Positions 21,414 to 38,579 of a stretch of 64,000 nt of DNA are shown piece after piece. Position numbers and translations under genes: made by a program. Every line of letters begins with the position of its first letter. Position 1 is the stretch's first letter. Where the stretch lies: assembly GCF_014191875.1 (NCBI RefSeq), contig NZ_JACHXD010000002.1, positions 186,001 through 250,000 of the forward strand. Direction: 5' to 3'. The notes below the pieces were generated by a model. That model was not told the DNA's origin. It saw only the letters and a program-made list of their open reading frames with translations, and searched no databases. The DNA comes from Pseudoduganella violacea (GTDB lineage Bacteria > Pseudomonadota > Gammaproteobacteria > Burkholderiales > Burkholderiaceae_D).

Positions 21414-22130
21414 TCAGACCGGTGCCAGCAGGGCCAGCTGTTCCGGCGTCAGATAGCACCACTCGCCCTCTTGCAGGCCGAGCGACGCCAATTCCAGGCC
21501 GCCGATGGCGGAGCGGTGCAGCGCGCTGCAATGGTTGCCGGCCGCCGCCAGCATGCGCTTGACCTGGTGGTATTTGCCCTGCTCCAGCACGATTTCCAGC
21601 TGGTGCTCGCCGCGCTGTTCGCAGACCAGGGCCGCCAGCGGCGCCGGCTCGTCGTGCAGTTGCACGCCGGCGCGCAGTTGCGCGATCAGTTCCGGCGTCA
21701 CCGGATCGTGGGTGGTGGCCTGGTAGACCTTGGGCACGTGGCGCTTGGGCGAGGACTGGGCATGGATGAAGGGGCCGTCGTCCGACATCAGCAGCATGCC
21801 CGTGGTGTCGTGGTCGAGGCGGCCGACCGGCTGCACTTCGCGCCAGCTGAATTGCTCGGGCAGCAAGGTCAGCACGCCGGGATGGTGGCTGGGCTTGCGC
21901 GAGCATTCATAGTCGGCCGGCTTGTACAGGGCCAGGTACAGGTGTTCGCGGTAGACCCACTCTTCCTCGAAGACTTGCAGCACCAGGCCCTCGGTGTCGA
22001 AGCTGGTCTTGTAATTGTCCTGCACGACGCCACCGATCAGGACATCGCCGTCCTCGATCAGGGCGCGGCAGTATTTGCGGGTGCCGAAACCCTGCGATTG
22101 CAGGATGCGGTCTAGGGATATTTTACTCAT
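21414..22130 (-). CDS. RsuA-family 16S rRNA pseudouridine synthase
   Basis: The product modifies a uridine in rRNA, by family most likely U516 of 16S rRNA. The start at ATG 22130 (MSKISLDRILQSQGFGTRKY) gives 238 residues and is preferred over a frame extension to 22205. An S4 RNA-binding domain fills the first 60 residues. The catalytic motif GRLDHDTTG places the nucleophile at Asp106. The end has LEQGKYHQVKRMLAAAGNHC. RluB/RluE/RluF relatives share the fold; the RsuA assignment rests on length and motif style. Confidence 0.85.
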   Translation of the reverse strand: MSKISLDRILQSQGFGTRKYCRALIEDGDVLIGGVVQDNYKTSFDTEGLVLQVFEEEWVYREHLYLALYKPADYECSRKPSHHPGVLTLLPEQFSWREVQPVGRLDHDTTGMLLMSDDGPFIHAQSSPKRHVPKVYQATTHDPVTPELIAQLRAGVQLHDEPAPLAALVCEQRGEHQLEIVLEQGKYHQVKRMLAAAGNHCSALHRSAIGGLELASLGLQEGEWCYLTPEQLALLAPV

Positions 22131-22173
22131 GGGGCGGAATTTTACCGGATTTGCCCTGGCACCCGCCAAGCGA

Positions 22174-22187
22174 TTGATATAAATCAA
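22174..22187. promoter_or_regulatory. Perfect FNR/Anr box (TTGATATAAATCAA)
   Basis: TTGAT-N4-ATCAA is a full match to the FNR/Anr consensus. Its centre (22180.5) lies about 41 bases before a plausible start site near 22221-22222, if TACACT (22209-22214) is the -10 element. That is the position expected for a class II activated promoter reading into the small gene at 22293. The rsuA-type gene reads the other way from 22130. Confidence 0.7.
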
Positions 22188-22292
22188 ACTGCTGACCGAT
22201 CCCATCGATACACTGGAAACAAATGTAGGAATCTACTTAACGTGCCTTAGGATTCCATCGAGCACGATCAGAATTTACGGGAGAGCCAGATC

Positions 22293-22496
22293 ATGCAAAT
22301 CCACGACAGCGATATCCGTGCCACCGCCGAACAGGCGGCCCAACATGAAACCGAAGCCGCCCTGGCGCGCTGGCGCGGTGGCGCCCCATTCGGCGGCCAT
22401 ACGGTGCAATGGCGCTGGCATGCGCACCTGCAGCAGCATTATCAGGATTGGCTGCAGGCTGGCGGCTTCCATGCCGAAGAAACCGGGCTGAAATGA
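22293..22496 (+). CDS. Small conserved-type hypothetical protein (67 aa) behind an FNR box
   Basis: No family was recognised. The 67-residue product (MQIHDSDIRATAEQAAQHE at the start) is rich in His, Gln, Ala and Trp, with a WRWHAHLQQHYQDWLQAGGF stretch and no membrane segment or signal peptide. The ribosome binding site GGGAGAG lies about 9 bases before the ATG. Codon use matches neighbouring real genes. A perfect FNR box lies about 110 bases upstream in the right place to activate it. A GC-rich stem (22503-22517) without a strong T run follows. It may be a low-oxygen-induced small protein; this is an inference. Confidence 0.65.
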   Translation: MQIHDSDIRATAEQAAQHETEAALARWRGGAPFGGHTVQWRWHAHLQQHYQDWLQAGGFHAEETGLK

Positions 22497-22748
22497 AAAC
22501 AGCGGCCAGAGGCCGCCGTTCTCTTGTTCCATCCCGGAACACATTCGAGGAAGTGAGTTCACTCGGTGGGCGCATGCACGATGCGCCGGGAGTAGTTCCA
22601 TCGCAATGTCAGCTTACGCCAACCTTCAACTTCTTGTATAAGCCCTCCCTTGGAACGAACTACATCACCACTATAGCCCACGACCGGGAATATACAAGGG
22701 GTAACAAGAGCAAACTGCCAATCTTGTCTGTTGCTCTCTTAACGCAAT

Positions 22749-23786
22749 TTAGCGCAGGGCGGGACGGGCGGCCTCGGCGGCCGCCTTGATCGCGCCGGAA
22801 CCCACGGCGGCGCCGAATTTCTTCAGCACGCGCTCCTGCAGTCCCTCGTGCTGGGTGTAGTCGATGATGTCGGGCGCGTCGATCACATCGCGCGCCACGC
22901 TGTCCACGCTGCCCAGGCCATCGGCCAGGCCCATGTCGATGGCGCGCGCGCCGGTCCAGAACAGGCCCGAGAACATCTCCGGCGTTTCCTTCAGACGCTT
23001 GCCGCGGCCCGTGCGCACCACGTCGATGAACTGCTGGTGGATTTCATTGAGCATGCTCTGGGCGTGCTGCTTTTGCTTGTCCGACTGCGGGCTGAACGGG
23101 TCGAGGAAACCTTTGTTGGCGCCGGCCGTCAGCAGGCGGCGCTCGACGCCCAGCTTGTCCATGGTGCCGGTGAAGCCGAAACCGTCCATCAGCACGCCGA
23201 TCGAGCCGATCAGGCTGGCCTTGTCGACATAGATCTTGTCGGCCGAGGCGGCGATGTAATAGCCGCCCGAAGCGCAGATCTCGTCGACCACCACGTACAG
23301 CGGCTTGGCCGGATAGCCCTTGCGCAGGCGGTGCACCTCGTCGACGATCATGCCGGCCTGCACCGCGCTGCCGCCCGGGCTGTTAATGTGCAGCACCACG
23401 GCCACCGAGCCGCTGTCGGAAAACGCCTTGTTGAGGGCCGGGATCACCACCGAGGCGGCGCCGCTACCCTCCGCCTCGATATTGCCTTCGATCTCGATCA
23501 GGGCCGTATGTCGCCCTAAAGACTCGGCATCTCCGCCCATCAGGTCGATATCGAAATAGCTGACCACAGCCAGGAAGACGATCACCAGCATGAAAACCTT
23601 GAAGAAGATGCTCCAGCGGCGGTTGGCGCGCTGTTCCTTCAGGGTGGCGAACACCAGCTTCTCCAGCACCTCCCTCTCCCACTTGATGGGCGGCGCGCCC
23701 TCGTCGGTGGGCGCGGCCGGCGGCGCCGGTGGCGGGGTCGGCGGCAAGCCAGCGGCGTTGCCGGGATGTTCAGTGTTCTCGTTCAT
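22749..23786 (-). CDS. sppA: S49-family signal peptide peptidase SppA
   Basis: SppA degrades cleaved signal peptides in the inner membrane. The product is 345 residues: a Pro-rich cytoplasmic N-terminus (about 14-34), one membrane segment at about 59-77, then the S49 domain. The nucleophile is likely Ser173 in CASGGYYIAA, and the general base Lys225 in AGANKGFLDPFSP. This is the short single-domain form. It is the last gene of the minus-strand rluC - phosphatase - Rieske - sppA series. The 252 bases downstream, to 22497, hold no recognisable gene. Confidence 0.93.
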   Translation of the reverse strand: MNENTEHPGNAAGLPPTPPPAPPAAPTDEGAPPIKWEREVLEKLVFATLKEQRANRRWSIFFKVFMLVIVFLAVVSYFDIDLMGGDAESLGRHTALIEIEGNIEAEGSGAASVVIPALNKAFSDSGSVAVVLHINSPGGSAVQAGMIVDEVHRLRKGYPAKPLYVVVDEICASGGYYIAASADKIYVDKASLIGSIGVLMDGFGFTGTMDKLGVERRLLTAGANKGFLDPFSPQSDKQKQHAQSMLNEIHQQFIDVVRTGRGKRLKETPEMFSGLFWTGARAIDMGLADGLGSVDSVARDVIDAPDIIDYTQHEGLQERVLKKFGAAVGSGAIKAAAEAARPALR

Positions 23787-32163: not shown

Positions 32164-34059
32164 TTGACCGATAAGAACCAGATCAGCGCCCTGATCCTCG
32201 CCGGTGGCCGCGCCACGCGCATGGGCCGCGTCGACAAAGGGCTGCAGCCGTTCCGCGGCGCCACCCTCGTCGCCCATGTGCTGGAAAAGCTCAAGCCGCA
32301 AGCGACCCACATCGCCATCAACGCCAACCGCAACGCCGACGCCTATGCCGCCTATGGCCTGCCCGTGCTGGCCGATTCGCTGGACGGCTTTGCCGGCCCG
32401 CTCGCAGGCCTGCAAGTCGGCCTGCAACAGTGCGCCACCGCGCTGCTGCTCACGGTGCCGTGCGACTCGCCCTTCCTGCCGGACGACCTGGCGGCGCGCC
32501 TGCACACTGCCCTGCTGGCCGAGGACGCCGATCTGGCCGTGGCCGTCACCCTGGAGCCGGACGAGCACGGCGTGCCGCAGCGCCAGCGCCATCCCGTGTT
32601 CAGTCTGGTCAAGCGCAGCGCCCTGCCCCAGTTGCAAGCTTATCTCGACAGCGGCATGCGGCGCATGGGCGGCTGGCATGGCGCGCTGCGCGTGGCCGAA
32701 GTACTGTTCAGCGATGCCGCCGCCTTCCGCAATATCAACACGCTGGAGCAGCTGCAACAAGAGGAGCGCGGCCACGCGCCCAGCCTGCAGCAAGTGATCG
32801 GCTGCCTGTCGGATTACGATCCCGGCGCGCTGCCCGTGCGCCATGCCCAGCACATCATCCAACGTTTCATCCAACCGGTGCGCGCCGTCGAAAAAGTCGC
32901 GCTGCGCAGCGCCCTCGACCGCGTGCTGGCAGCTGACCTGATCTCGCCCATAGATGTGCCGGCCCACGACAATTCCGCCATGGACGGCTACGCCTTCGAC
33001 GGCGCCCAATTGCAAGGCCGGGAACAGCTCACGCTGCGCACCATCGGCATCGCCTACGCCGGCCAGCCATCGGGGCTGCGTCCCGGTCCCGGCGAATGCG
33101 TGCGCATCATGACCGGCGGCGTCATGCCCGAAGGCTGCGACACCGTGCTGCCGCAGGAACTGGCCAGCGCCAGCGACGCCGCCAGCGTCACCTTCGCCGG
33201 CAACAGCGTGCGCAGCGGCGACAACCGGCGCCGCCAGGGCGAAGACTTGCAAGCCGGCCAGCCCGCCCTGCGCACCGGCAAGCTGATCCGCCCGGCCGAC
33301 CTCGGCCTGATCGCCTCGCTCGGCATCGCCGAAGTCCCGGTGCGGCGCCGCCTGCGCGTCGCCTTCTTCTCCACCGGCGACGAGCTGCGCTCCATCGGCG
33401 AGCCGCTCGAGCAAGGCTGCATCTACGACAGCAACCGCTACACCTTGTACGGCATGCTGCGCCGCCTCGGCTGCGACATCATCGACATGGGCGTCACGCG
33501 CGACGACCCGGCCGCGCTCGAAGCGGCCCTGCGCGAAGCCTGCGAAAGCGCCGACGCCATCATCACCTCCGGCGGCGTCTCGGTGGGCGACGCCGACTAC
33601 ACGCGCGCAGTGATGGACAAGCTGGGCGAAGTCAGTTTCTGGAAAATCGGCATGCGCCCGGGCCGGCCGATGGCCTTTGGCCAGATCCGCTCCAACGGCC
33701 ACTCCGCCTTCCTGTTCGGTCTGCCCGGCAACCCGGTCGCCGTCATGGTCACCTTCTACTTCTTCGCCCGCAACGCCCTGCAGCGCATGATGGGCGTCGA
33801 CGGCGGCAACGACATGCCGCTGCTGCGCGCCCGCGCGGCCGACGCCATCCGCAAAAAAGCCGGCCGCACCGAATACCAGCGCGGCATCGTCAGCCTGGGC
33901 GCCGACGGCCAGGCCGAAGTGCGTCTGACGGGCGCGCAAGGCAGCGGCATCCTGCGCTCCATGACCGAAGCCAACTGCATCATCATCCTCCCCGACGAGC
34001 AAGGCAACGTCGCCCCCGGCGAGTCCGTCGCCATCCTCCCCTTCGAAGGTCTGATCTAA
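32164..34059 (+). CDS. Fused MobA-MoeA protein (MoCo guanylyltransferase plus molybdopterin molybdotransferase)
   Basis: One 631-codon frame encodes two enzymes normally made separately. Residues 1-199 are MobA (LILAGGRATRMG at 10-21, DKGLQPF at 24-30, TVPCDSPF at 97-104, ending FRNINTLEQL), which attaches GMP to MoCo. Residues about 208-631 are MoeA (SDYDPGALPVRHA, VPAHDNSAMDGYAF, RIMTGGVMPEGCDTVLPQE, ITSGGVSVGDADYT, FGLPGNPVAVMVTF), which inserts molybdate. The start is TTG 32164, with a GGGGG tract 5 bases before it. A later ATG would remove LAGG. A GAGGAG tract at 32761-32766 lies at the joint but has no start codon at the right distance. Confidence 0.88.
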   Translation: MTDKNQISALILAGGRATRMGRVDKGLQPFRGATLVAHVLEKLKPQATHIAINANRNADAYAAYGLPVLADSLDGFAGPLAGLQVGLQQCATALLLTVPCDSPFLPDDLAARLHTALLAEDADLAVAVTLEPDEHGVPQRQRHPVFSLVKRSALPQLQAYLDSGMRRMGGWHGALRVAEVLFSDAAAFRNINTLEQLQQEERGHAPSLQQVIGCLSDYDPGALPVRHAQHIIQRFIQPVRAVEKVALRSALDRVLAADLISPIDVPAHDNSAMDGYAFDGAQLQGREQLTLRTIGIAYAGQPSGLRPGPGECVRIMTGGVMPEGCDTVLPQELASASDAASVTFAGNSVRSGDNRRRQGEDLQAGQPALRTGKLIRPADLGLIASLGIAEVPVRRRLRVAFFSTGDELRSIGEPLEQGCIYDSNRYTLYGMLRRLGCDIIDMGVTRDDPAALEAALREACESADAIITSGGVSVGDADYTRAVMDKLGEVSFWKIGMRPGRPMAFGQIRSNGHSAFLFGLPGNPVAVMVTFYFFARNALQRMMGVDGGNDMPLLRARAADAIRKKAGRTEYQRGIVSLGADGQAEVRLTGAQGSGILRSMTEANCIIILPDEQGNVAPGESVAILPFEGLI

Positions 34060-34066
34060 ATCAACA

Positions 34067-34161
34067 AATGTCCCACCCGGTGTCAGGCACCAGAGTAGGA
34101 CATTGTTTGCGCTGGATCAAAGAATGTCCGACCTTGGTGCCTGACACCAGGGTGGGACATT
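34067..34161. repeat. Pair of inverted palindromic intergenic repeats between moeA and the CoA-transferase gene
   Basis: Unit A (34067-34104, 38 bases) and unit B (34123-34161, 39 bases) each begin AATGTCC and end GGACATT, with an inner core GGTGTCAGGCACC (A) or GGTGCCTGACACC (B). Each is an imperfect hairpin, and B resembles the reverse complement of A. The 18 bases between them end in GGATCAAAG. A third, related unit is at 60941-60975. They lie between convergent genes, like REP/BIME elements. No transposase is linked. Confidence 0.85.
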
Positions 34162-34173
34162 GTTTGATGCAGA

Positions 34174-35716
34174 TCAAAGGTGGAACAGGTGGGCGGGCAT
34201 GGGCTGCAGCTTGGCGCTGATGGCGGGACGGAAGTCCATGTGGGCGAGGATGTCGCGCTCGAGGTCGATGCCGGGGGCGATTTCGATCAGTTCGGGGCCG
34301 TGCGCGCCCAGACGGAAGACGCAGCGCTCGGTGACGTACAGGGCTTGCTGGCCGCGCGCGAGGGCGTGGGCGGCGCTGTAGCTGCGGTGTTCGACCACGT
34401 CGACGAATTTGCGGGCGCTGCCTTCGCTCACAATGCTGAGACGCCCCGTATCCACAGCAACGCAGGCCGCCGGTGGTGAAGGTGCCGGCGAAGATCACCT
34501 TGCGCGCGTTCTGGCTGATGTTGATGAAGCCGCCCGCGCCGGCCAGCTTGCGGCCGAATTTGCTGACGTTCAGATTGCCTTCGCGATCGGCTTGCGCCAG
34601 TCCCAGTACGGCAACATCGAGGCCGCCGCCATCGTAAAAGTCGAATTGGTAGGGCTGGTCGATGACGGCGTCGGGATTGGCGGCGGCGCCGAAACTCAGG
34701 CCGCCCACCGGCAGGCCGCCGATCACGCCCGCTTCGGTAGTCAGGGTCAGTTGTTCGAGCAGACCGGCTTCGGCGGCGACGTCGGCCACGCCTTCGGGCA
34801 TGCCGATGCCGAGGTTGACCACATCGCCGGCCTGCAATTCCATCAGCGCGCGGCGCGCGATGATCTTGCGTTCGTTGAGGTGCAACGGCGCGCGCTCGCC
34901 CAGTTCGATCCGTTCCAGGCCGGCATAGGCGGCGCTGAAGGCTTCGGCAAAGGTTTGCATATGGTGGGATGGGTCTTCCGCCAGCACCACGCAGTCGACC
35001 AGGATGCCGGGCACCTTGACCTGGCGCGGATTGAGCGTGCCGCGCGGCGCCAGCGCTTCGACCTGGGCGATCACCAGGCCGCCGCTATTGTGCGCGGCCA
35101 TGGCGATGGCCAGCACCTCCAGCGTCAGCGCCTCGCGTTCCATGGTGATATTGCCGGCGCTGTCGGCCGTGCTGCCGCGGATGATGGCCACCTGCACCGG
35201 CAGCGTCTTGTAGAACAGGCTTTCGCGCCCGCCCAGCATGCTCAGCTCGACCAGATCCTCGCTGGCGCGCGCATTGATCTTGCCGCCGCCATGGCGCGGG
35301 TCGACGAAGGTGCCGAGGCCGACGTGGGTCAGCATGCCGGGCTTGCCGGCCGCCGTGTCGCGGAACAGCTGGCTGATCACGCCCTGCGGCAGATTGTAGG
35401 CTTCGATCAGATTGTCGATGGCGAGCTGCTGCAGCTTGGGCACCAGTCCCCAGTGGCCGCCGATCACGCGCCGCAGCAAGCCTTCATGGGCCAGGTGGTT
35501 CAGGCCACGCTCGCCGCCATCGCCCTGGCCCGCCGCGTACAGCAGGGTCAGGCCGCGCGGCCCGCCTTCGCGCAGGAAGCGCTGCTCCAGCGCCACGGCG
35601 ATATTCTCGGCAAAGCCGATGCCGACAAAGCCGCCGGTGGCGACCGTATCGCCATCGCGGATGCGCGCCACGGCGTCGGCGGCGCTGACGATCTTGCTGC
35701 GCGGGCTGCTGGACAT
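34174..35716 (-). pseudogene. Acyl CoA:acetate/3-ketoacid CoA-transferase, frameshifted near its 3' end
   Basis: The enzyme family moves CoA between short acyl acids through a glutamyl-CoA intermediate. Two halves of the family are fused in one frame from ATG 35716. The likely catalytic Glu328 lies in [14 protein letters not shown]. The frame is normal to residue 418 ([10 protein letters not shown], codon at 34465-34463). It then shifts by one base (one extra or two missing) within about 34459-34466. The family C-terminus continues in the next frame ([20 protein letters not shown] to HLFHL) and stops at 34174, for a total of about 514 residues, the normal size. The unshifted frame runs on into the repeats. 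It may be a real pseudogene or a sequencing error. Confidence 0.8.
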
Positions 35717-35766: not shown

Positions 35767-37038
35767 TCAGAGGCTGTCGAGTTCTTCCGAATCCTGTTCC
35801 TGGCTTGCCCCCAGCAGGAGCTGGGCCGCTTCAGCAGGTAAAGCTTCCACCGACTTCAGCTTGCGCGCCATCTGCCGGCTGCGCACTTCGGCCGATTCGA
35901 TATTGCGGGCGGCGCGTTCCAGCGTGCTCCTGGTGGCGGCCAGCACGTCGCCGAACTTGGCGAACTCCGTCTTCACCGCGCCCAGCACCTGCCACACCTC
36001 CGACGAGCGCTTCTCCAGCGCCAGCGTGCGGAAGCCCATCTGCAGGCTGTTCAGCAGCGCGGTCAAGGTCGAGGGACCGGCAATGCTGATGCGGTGCTGC
36101 CTTTGCAGCTCGTCCGCCAGACCGGGACGGCGCATGACTTCCGCATACAGGCCTTCGGTCGGCAGGAAGAGGATGGCGAAATCGGTGGTGGCCGGCGGTG
36201 CCAGGTATTTCTCGGCGATGGTGCGCGCCTCGTTGCGCACCGCCCGCTCCAGTTCGCGCCCGGCCACGGCCACGCCGTCGGCGTCGGCCCGTTCTGCCGC
36301 TTCCAACAGCCTTTCGTACTGCTCTTTCGGGAATTTGGCGTCGATCGGCATCCACACCGGCGCTCCGCCTTCCTGCTGGCCCGGCAGTTTGAGCGCGAAC
36401 TCCACGCGCGCATTGCTGCCGATGACCGTTTCCACATTCTTGGCATACTGCTCCGGCGTCAGCACCTGTTCCAGCAGCATTTCCAGCTGTACCTCGCCCC
36501 AGGTGCCGCGCGTCTTCACATTGGTCAGCACGCGTTTCAAATCGCCCACGCCGAGCGCCAATTGCTGCATCTCGCCCAGGCCCTGGTGCACGCGCTCCAG
36601 CCGCTCCGACACCTGGCGGAACGATTCGCTCAGACGCGTTTCCAACGTCGCATGCAGCTTCTCGTCCACCGTCTTGCGCATTTCTTCCAGCCGCGCGCCG
36701 TTATCGGTTTGCAGCTCGCGCATCTTGTTCTCCAGCGTCAGCCGCACTTCCAGCAGACGGCGCGCATTCGATTCCGTCAGCGCCTCGATCTGGCGCCGCA
36801 TGCCATCGAGCTGCTGCACCGTGGCGGCATGGGCCTGGGTCAGCGTGCTGCCCATCTCCTGGCGCTGGGCCTGGGCCGTGGCCTGCAATTGCAGGCGCAC
36901 TTCGCGCTCGACGCGGTCCAGGCGCTCGGCCAGGTCGGCGTCCACGCCGCCGCTGCGCCCGCGCAGCAGCAGCACGATCTGCAGGCCGATAATCAGGGCG
37001 CAGGCGGCCAGCAGGAGCCAGAGCAGGGTCGCCTCCAT
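35767..37038 (-). CDS. rmuC: DNA recombination protein RmuC
   Basis: RmuC family proteins have a nuclease-like fold and limit rearrangements at inverted repeats. The start at ATG 37038 ([20 protein letters not shown]) gives 423 residues. The N-terminal membrane segment covers about 4-24, a long coiled coil about 30-170, and the RmuC core about 175-380 ([57 protein letters not shown]). Its ATG overlaps the haemoglobin stop by one base, so the two are cotranscribed. Confidence 0.93.
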
Positions 37039-37439
37039 CAGCCGGCCTTGTTCCGCATCCAGTCGGCGGTCTGGAAGAAGGAATTCATCAGCCGCACGCG
37101 CAAATCGTCCGCGATGCCGACGTCTTCCATGGCCCAGGCCATGCAGCGCAGCCACTGGTCACGCTCATCGCTGGCGATGGCGAACGGCAGGTGGCGCGCG
37201 CGCAGGCGCGGATGGCCGAAGCGTTCCACGAACATATCGGGACCGCCCATCCAGCCACTGAGAAACCAGAACAGCTTGTCGCGCGAACCTTCGGTGGAAG
37301 GCGGGTGCATGGTGCGGATGCCGGCAAATTCCGGTTCCAGCTCCATCAAATCGTAAAAACGGTCGACCATCTCGCGCAGCTTGCTTTCGCCGCCGATCAC
37401 GTCGTACAAAGTAGGGGATGCGGTTTCATTCTGATTCAT
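37038..37439 (-). CDS. Group II truncated haemoglobin
   Basis: The 133-residue product matches the group II trHb family, which binds O2 or NO. It starts with TLYDVIGGESKLREMVDRFYDLM and has GWMGGPDMFVERFGHPRLRARHLPF, which contains the likely proximal His, and WAMEDVGIADDLRVRLMNSFF. A perfect FNR box lies 33-46 bases before its ATG. That suggests oxygen control, although the spacing leaves little room for a leader. It overlaps rmuC by one base. Confidence 0.92.
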   Translation of the reverse strand: MNQNETASPTLYDVIGGESKLREMVDRFYDLMELEPEFAGIRTMHPPSTEGSRDKLFWFLSGWMGGPDMFVERFGHPRLRARHLPFAIASDERDQWLRCMAWAMEDVGIADDLRVRLMNSFFQTADWMRNKAG

Positions 37440-37471: not shown

Positions 37472-37485
37472 TTGATCTGGATCAA
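37472..37485. promoter_or_regulatory. Perfect FNR/Anr box (TTGATCTGGATCAA)
   Basis: This is a full TTGAT-N4-ATCAA match between the divergent haemoglobin gene (start 37439) and response-regulator gene (start 37572). For haemoglobin, a TATCAT element (37451-37446 on the minus strand) could be a -10. The class II position (-41.5) would then put the transcript start at about 37437, that is, almost leaderless. For the plus strand, TTTAAT (37499-37504) gives a centre near -32. Which gene it controls is open. Confidence 0.68.
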
Positions 37486-37571
37486 TCATCGATTGGATTT
37501 TAATCAAATCCGCCGCATTCCCCGGCATCATGCAGATTCAACCATTTTTCGAGGCGTATGCCGGGTAAGCC

Positions 37572-38579
37572 ATGAAACTGTCCGTCTACTCTCACCCGTC
37601 GACCATCGTGCTGGTCGACGACAGCCCGACCTTCCTGCGCAGCTTGGGCTACCACCTTGGGTCGCAGCCCTGCCGCAGCTTCAGCGACACCACCGAAGCC
37701 CTGGTCTGGCTGCATGCCAGCCCGCGCCGTACCGGCCTGCCGCTGCGCGTCAGCTTCGACATGCATGGCCAGCAAGCGGACCAGCGCAATATCGCGATCG
37801 ACGTGGAGCGCATCCACCGCATCGCCAGCCAGCAGCAGCGCTTCGCCATTCCGTCCGTGCTGGTGGTCGATTATTCCATGCCGCAGATGAGCGGCATCGA
37901 TTTCTTCAAGGCCGTGCAGCATCTGCCCTGCAAGAAGATCCTGTTTACCGGCACCGGCGACGAGAAGATCGCCGTCGACGCCTTCAACCGCGGCCTGATC
38001 GACCGCTACATCCGCAAGAATGACCGCAGCGCGCTGGACCTGCTGGAACGCGAAATCCACGTCCTGCAGCAAGCCTTCTTCCTGGACCGCTCGGAAACCC
38101 TGCGCGATATGCTGGCCTTGCACGACTACGGCTTCCTGCGCTGCCCGCAGCTGGCGGCCGTGGTGCGCGAACTGTACGAGATGCGCGGCTTTGTCGAACA
38201 CTATGTCTTCCCCAAGCCGGCCGGCATCATGTTCTGCGAGCGCAACGGCAAGGCCACGCTGATGATTATCGAAACGGCCGACAGCCTGCAAGCCCAGTAC
38301 GAAATGGCGCGCGACAGCGGCGCCCCGGTCTCGCTGCTACAAGCCCTGCAGGACAAGCGCATCGTGCCCTTTTTCAGCCAGATCCCGGGCAACGACGGCA
38401 TGTACTCGGCCGAGGTGGGCGAGCGCTGGCACCGTTACTGCAACGCGCCGCAGATTTGCCGCGGCGCCGAAACCTATTACTGGGCGTTGTTCGACGTGCC
38501 GCCCCACCTGCTGGACAGTCCCGTCTTCGCTTTCGAGCGGCATGGCAAGGATGCCGCGCCGCAGCCCAGCATGGCGTGA
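37572..38579 (+). CDS. Response regulator with split receiver domain and unknown C-terminal part
   Basis: The 335-residue product has receiver-domain residues Asp16/Asp17 (VLVDDS), phosphoacceptor Asp100 (VVDYSMPQMSG), Thr126 (LFTGTGDE) and Lys149. Asp17 to Asp100 is 83 residues, about 40 more than normal, so a segment at about 46-90 is inserted before the phosphorylation site. Residues 160-335 show no DNA-binding, GGDEF, HD-GYP or kinase motif. They include a Cys/Tyr/His-containing region (FRCPQLAAVV-like and WHRYCNAPQICRGAETYYW). Similar LqsR/JqsR-type quorum-sensing regulators of the same size exist in Legionella and Janthinobacterium; this match is tentative. No kinase gene is adjacent. 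Confidence 0.75.
   Translation: MKLSVYSHPSTIVLVDDSPTFLRSLGYHLGSQPCRSFSDTTEALVWLHASPRRTGLPLRVSFDMHGQQADQRNIAIDVERIHRIASQQQRFAIPSVLVVDYSMPQMSGIDFFKAVQHLPCKKILFTGTGDEKIAVDAFNRGLIDRYIRKNDRSALDLLEREIHVLQQAFFLDRSETLRDMLALHDYGFLRCPQLAAVVRELYEMRGFVEHYVFPKPAGIMFCERNGKATLMIIETADSLQAQYEMARDSGAPVSLLQALQDKRIVPFFSQIPGNDGMYSAEVGERWHRYCNAPQICRGAETYYWALFDVPPHLLDSPVFAFERHGKDAAPQPSMA

Follow-up and report, generated by a model that had tools for sequence, protein, structure and literature searches.

The window analysed here is a stretch of 64,000 nucleotides from genome G000 (C2:186001–250000). Within it, a 618-bp intergenic space lies between a gene for an RsuA-like pseudouridine synthase and a gene for an SppA-like S49 peptidase, and this space contains a 67-codon open reading frame (ORF) preceded by an FNR box, together with a structured RNA that is read towards the ORF from the opposite strand. 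Its features are:

21414–22130, minus strand: RsuA-like pseudouridine synthase gene, divergent (TIGR00093, 125 bits against a cut-off of 109; the RsuA model at 132 bits, below its cut-off of 275)
22174–22187, plus strand: FNR box TTGATATAAATCAA, an exact match to the consensus TTGATNNNNATCAA
22209–22214, plus strand: −10 hexamer TACACT, 21 nt 3′ of the FNR box
22222, plus strand: transcription start, predicted purely from the geometry, which places the box centre at −41.5
22225–22236, plus strand: leader element GTAGGAATCTAC, containing TAGGAAT (22226–22232) at about +5
22279–22283, plus strand: GGGAG, a ribosome binding site read from the sequence
22293–22496, plus strand: gene for a 67-aa small protein, with an ATG start, homologues and purifying selection
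22491–22665, minus strand (running from 22665 to 22491): structured small RNA of about 175 nt, matched by our RNA model R1 (G000:C2:208491–208665, minus, 145 bits)
22495–22523, both directions: terminator hairpin with arms 22495–22507 and 22511–22523; terminator-like matches on both strands
22670–22697, minus strand: small-RNA promoter, with −35 TTGTAT (22697–22692), 16 nt and −10 TATAGT (22675–22670)
22749–23786, minus strand: SppA-like S49 peptidase gene, convergent (SppA domain as the top match, 129 bits, under the cut-off of 155)

The neighbourhood of the small-protein gene is nearly constant. When duplicates are left unmerged, the RsuA-like gene is divergent in 123 of 124 loci and the SppA-like gene convergent in 121 of 124, the exceptions being loci in which the neighbour is absent within the fetched stretch or contig. 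The nearest named record for the 67-aa protein, at 96% identity, belongs to Massilia sp. BJB1822, and the next records (21 loci) are titled Duganella, Oxalobacteraceae, Rugamonas, Massilia and Telluria. Literature searches, which for the most part covered papers outside subscription, returned no paper on the small-protein gene or on the convergent RNA; the words 'sppA', 'pseudouridine' and 'peptidase' do not occur in the main texts of PMC6337395 and PMC3521395.

The FNR-type promoter and its leader

The first-pass annotation had described a perfect FNR box in the class II layout before a small gene with a good ribosome binding site, and had proposed that both the box and the protein frame be sought in related genomes. 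The box is indeed exact at 22174–22187, and GGGAG at 22279–22283 precedes the ATG at 22293. Since the box stands 21 nt from the −10 hexamer, its centre would lie about 41 nt upstream of the predicted start at about 22222. FNR-activated promoters typically have their site near −41.5, according to passages of PMC3688515 and PMC7713065, and a passage of the former places it at −41.5 ± 4 in 19 of 23 FNR-activated promoters of E. coli.

The same arrangement recurs in relatives of the gene. A box of the form TTG[AC]N6TCAA with its −10 was found by script in 80 of 81 distinct loci and by eye in the remaining one (L121, an exact box with −10 TATGAT), where distinct means that duplicates were merged by identical 250-nt sequence; these loci are related and thus not independent. 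Four profile matches (L038, L041, L098 and L101) were dropped from this count when the motif regex failed, although the box can be recognized by eye in L038 and L098, and L041 belongs to the list of 70 leaders considered next. These 70 distinct leaders were chosen by a script that demanded the leader motif together with a box and a −10-like hexamer and allowed a spacer of 19–25 nt. The spacer between box and −10 measures 21 nt in 67 of them and 22 nt in the other 3; the −10 reads TA[ACG]A[CG]T in 70 of 70, a −10-like hexamer having been one of the selection conditions. In this leader count the regex failed for L038, L098 and L121, and in all three the box, the spacer and TAGGAAT are visible by eye. 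When 30 loci of the genus are aligned with no filter applied, TAGGAAT, the −10 and the box line up, and the bases between box and −10 vary. Furthermore, the genome encodes an FNR protein (L137:973–1752; NF008365, 268.5 bits against a curated cut-off of 228), in the sequence of which three close cysteines can be read near the N-terminus and others further in. The conserved geometry and the presence of this protein support the proposed class II FNR layout upstream of the 67-codon ORF, and the gene would be expected to be induced at low oxygen.

Alternatively, the main regulator might be some other protein of the Crp/Fnr family, for example one of the nitric-oxide-sensing Dnr/Nnr type, and the signal would then not be oxygen perceived via FNR. 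The genome has seven matches above cut-off to the Crp-type HTH family, and the half-sites of the box vary across genera (TTGAC/ATCAA in 26, TTGAT/ATCAA in 24, TTGAG/ATCAA in 19 and others in 11; n = 80), so that in some of them control might rest mainly with a different Crp/Fnr protein. However, the seven include a clear FNR, the box in the window is the exact FNR consensus, and in this genome the ccoN-like COX1 gene and the aerotaxis-like PAS-chemoreceptor gene are both preceded by a box of this form, followed after 22 nt by a −10-like hexamer. On this evidence we regard control by a different family member as unlikely.

Exact FNR boxes number 52 in the 6.25-Mb genome, against 0 for a reversed-pattern control, and three of them fall within the window. 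The figure of 52 overstates the FNR regulon, because 7 of the 15 exact-box places that were fetched sit at the termini of a dispersed palindromic repeat (three recognized by script, four by eye); the box at 22174 is outside this repeat. The repeat itself has the core GGTGTCAGGCACC and ATGTCC/GGACAT arms, with the FNR-box-like TTGATNNNNATCAA at its ends, and occurs at 34052–34177 of the window as well as in L154, L157, L160, L161, L162, L164 and L166. Elsewhere in the window, an exact and a one-mismatch box (37472–37507) lie between a bacterial-globin gene (minus strand, 37038–37439) and a divergent ORF (plus strand, 37572–38579); the box of the globin gene, at 37472–37485, has a −10-like hexamer 20 nt on.

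The beginning of the leader is conserved as well. TAGGAAT occupies the same place, at about +5, in 30 of 30 unfiltered genus loci, and all 81 distinct loci have it no more than 450 nt upstream. The motif mostly lies inside an inverted repeat, but a hairpin at this position was rejected as a proven RNA structure. Its covariation does not rise above that of shuffles: the share of paired cells was equalled by 107 of 500 shuffles, the number of cells changed on both sides by 34 and the covariation score by 65. A role of the motif as the operator of a wider regulon was likewise rejected, as six genomes yielded three other matches with two mismatches against eight for the control. In the same six genomes the full motif sits at the small-protein gene (exactly in five, with two mismatches in one). 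We therefore read it as a putative gene-specific cis element; it is constrained, and it may act as DNA or as RNA.

The 67-residue protein

The single sequence alone retrieved homologues from 44 of the 74 genus genomes, and a core profile (A4) built from 54 cores, cut just after the conserved GGF and thereby free of the tails that are antisense of the RNA, matched 70 of 74, the genomes without a match being G034, G035, G063 and G065. Beyond the genus, a profile that includes these antisense tails (A1) matched 97 of 294 genomes of the family, representing 5 of the 44 genera sampled. Across 300 sampled genomes of the order, the core profile gave four matches, all within this family: the source genome and three more. 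The reading frame is under purifying selection: a crude counting method applied to related pairs gives the core a pooled dN/dS of 0.09 in the clade of the window (17 nonsynonymous changes over 875 sites, 46 synonymous over 241 sites) and 0.21–0.42 in eight other groups. Judged by this pattern of substitution, the 67-codon ORF is a gene under protein-level selection, and the small gene postulated in the first-pass annotation is thus borne out, as is the conservation of its frame. Searches of plasmid and phage sequences gave no match to the 67-aa protein, and an origin from such elements was accordingly rejected.

The protein had been described as rich in His, Trp and Gln, and its 67 residues do include 7 His, 4 Trp and 8 Gln. 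His-richness is not a feature of the family, however: H18 and H43 are invariant in 30 members from the genus and replaced in other genera, so His-based binding of a metal or haem was rejected as a family trait. The residues that the core profile holds invariant are W53, G57 and G58, followed by the near-invariant A16, R26, W42, Q47, L54 and F59. An AlphaFold2 model based on 22 sequences has helices at 5–28 and 38–55, with modest confidence (pLDDT 73, pTM 0.34). The protein is hydrophilic (pI 6.1) and has no membrane segment, its top 19-residue hydrophobic window scoring −0.17. The earlier statement that it matches no known family agrees with our searches of Pfam, NCBIfam, PHROGs, PADLOC and PDB sequences, none of which gave a family match. 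Scattered matches of single members at E 0.003 or worse, such as NF005927 (4 of 54 members, best E 0.012), were not taken as homology. The product is most likely a soluble two-helix protein made as oxygen falls, and a candidate for docking on a partner, probably through its conserved residues R26, W42, Q47, W53 and F59.

The convergent structured RNA

The RNA is more widespread than the ORF. Of the 294 family genomes, 140 have a match to the R1 model, and these represent 21 of 44 genera. The weakest matches cover only part of the RNA or are short, and chance may account for some of them; two weak-match loci checked in other genera (L131 and L132) also lie beside an SppA-like gene. Its promoter, TTGNNN-N16-TATA[GTA]T, is of the sigma-70 type and recurs in 64 of the 71 distinct copies. 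Folding of the consensus is more stable for the minus strand (−23.3 versus −8.2 kcal/mol), and the most conserved helix of the model is the terminator hairpin. As to the sequences behind these results, set A3 used 27 of 30 RNA copies, and set A8 consists of 44 chosen loci fitted to the model structure. Across the 44 sequences, 97.2% of cells are paired, and both sides have changed in 24 of 38 pairs against 8.5 in shuffles, none of the 500 reaching as high a value; as the alignment was fitted to the model, these figures lean towards the model structure. By its covariation and predicted promoter, the locus RNA is a structured RNA with a promoter of its own, which the first-pass annotation had overlooked.

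At the gathering score, Rfam 15 has no match anywhere in the window. With E values up to 1, the region 21800–23200 gave two sub-threshold matches (23.6 bits against a required 229, and 18.9 against 123), and nine loci together gave one such match. Outside the family, a 250-genome sample of the order produced seven weak matches to the RNA (E 3e-5 to 1e-3); as none has an RsuA-like or SppA-like neighbour in the fetched stretch, they were taken as terminator-like chance matches.

In 78 of 81 distinct loci the RNA is present in the fetched stretch and convergent on the ORF, seven of the 81 (L099, L100, L105, L106, L107, L110 and L111) having been fetched via the RNA model, so that their RNA is not independent evidence. 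The ORF stop falls inside the RNA gene in 41 of the 78 loci, by 42–106 nt in 32 of them and by 2–6 nt in 9, and the ORF stops short of the RNA in the other 37; the overlap in the window amounts to 6 nt. In L115, L122 and G076:C12 the RNA lies beyond the ORF by about 1.2, 1.8 and 7.7 kb, respectively, and other DNA has thus come between the two in these lineages, breaking up the head-on arrangement.

Conservation is striking in the DNA that follows the ORF. Many homologues have a C-terminal tail (ENSG...DAVE) that is simply this DNA in translation; the convergent conserved RNA accounts for these tails. This raises the question of whether the ORF might be spurious, its apparent conservation belonging to the overlapping RNA. 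In favour of this idea, the tails are translated RNA antisense, and some species read the same DNA in another frame. The core, however, stops just after GGF, near the border of the RNA gene, with an overlap of a few nucleotides in some species, and its dN/dS is 0.09–0.42. Moreover, the core profile matches 70 of 74 genus genomes and none of its matches is in G035, which has retained the RNA (L130) and lost the small-protein gene. A spurious ORF is thus highly improbable, and the RNA, kept in G035 without the ORF, does not depend on it.

A different possibility is that the FNR-driven transcript acts mainly as a regulatory RNA, either with a dual function or as an antisense of the convergent RNA, and that the peptide is secondary. 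The invariant leader motif, which occurs once per genome and at the small-protein gene, would fit such a role, as would the ORF stops lying within the RNA gene in 41 of 78 loci. Nevertheless, protein-level selection is clear, and the ORF ends before the RNA in 37 of the 78 loci. Base pairing of the RNA with the leader of the mRNA (AGGAAUC/GAUUCCU) was also considered and rejected, since cognate duplexes beat shuffled leaders in only 1 of 80 pairs and were no better in the other 79 (criterion: no more than 5 of 100 mononucleotide shuffles as good). A mainly regulatory transcript is therefore, in our view, rather improbable. The convergent RNA is most likely a separate regulator transcribed from its own promoter, and its expression would be constitutive.

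A model of the locus and its relation to known systems

These observations can be combined into a single scheme. As oxygen falls, FNR would bind at 22174–22187 and, from the class II position, activate RNA polymerase at the −10 hexamer 22209–22214. The resulting transcript would start near 22222, carry the conserved UAGGAAU element in its leader and, with translation beginning at 22293, give a soluble 67-residue protein of two helices, which may dock on its partner via R26, W42, Q47, W53 and F59. Transcription would stop at the terminator that the mRNA has in common with the structured RNA. The latter would be read towards the gene from its sigma-70-type promoter, so that the two would meet head-on, and some cross-talk between them may result. 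As a whole, the explanation of an FNR-activated small-protein gene sharing a terminator with a convergent RNA appears to us quite likely.

A bolder extension would turn the locus into a two-way oxygen switch, in which a constitutive RNA and an FNR-driven mRNA run head-on and overlap in many species; low oxygen would both make the protein and shut down or sequester the RNA, and the protein would act on the target of the RNA. The means might be transcription collision or antisense pairing, and the protein could possibly be the binding partner of the RNA. We consider such a switch improbable.

FNR regulons include small genes of unknown function, and a small-protein gene under a class II FNR promoter is as such a known kind; it is the protein family and the convergent RNA that are absent from the family libraries searched. 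This small-protein family has a fixed promoter geometry, a fixed address and a leader element conserved in several genera, next to a structured RNA that is itself unclassified. Protein and RNA could each enter annotation databases as new families. YdfZ of E. coli is likewise a small protein. According to a passage of PMC3688515, its gene ydfZ resembles the one described here in having an FNR site at −41.5 and an unknown function. Judged by the Pfam searches, the protein here differs in matching no family. The same source, again in a passage, places an FNR site at −42.5 for FnrS of E. coli, likewise a small FNR-activated transcript. In contrast to FnrS, the FNR-driven transcript of our locus encodes a protein under selection, and the locus RNA lies on the other strand with its own promoter. 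Finally, the locus RNA resembles 6S RNA (RF00013) in being structured and about 180 nt long, with a 5′ part that pairs with a distant stretch. However, the locus RNA has no Rfam match at threshold, and identity with 6S RNA was rejected, as the 6S RNA of this genome is located elsewhere, at G000:C2:338317–338496.
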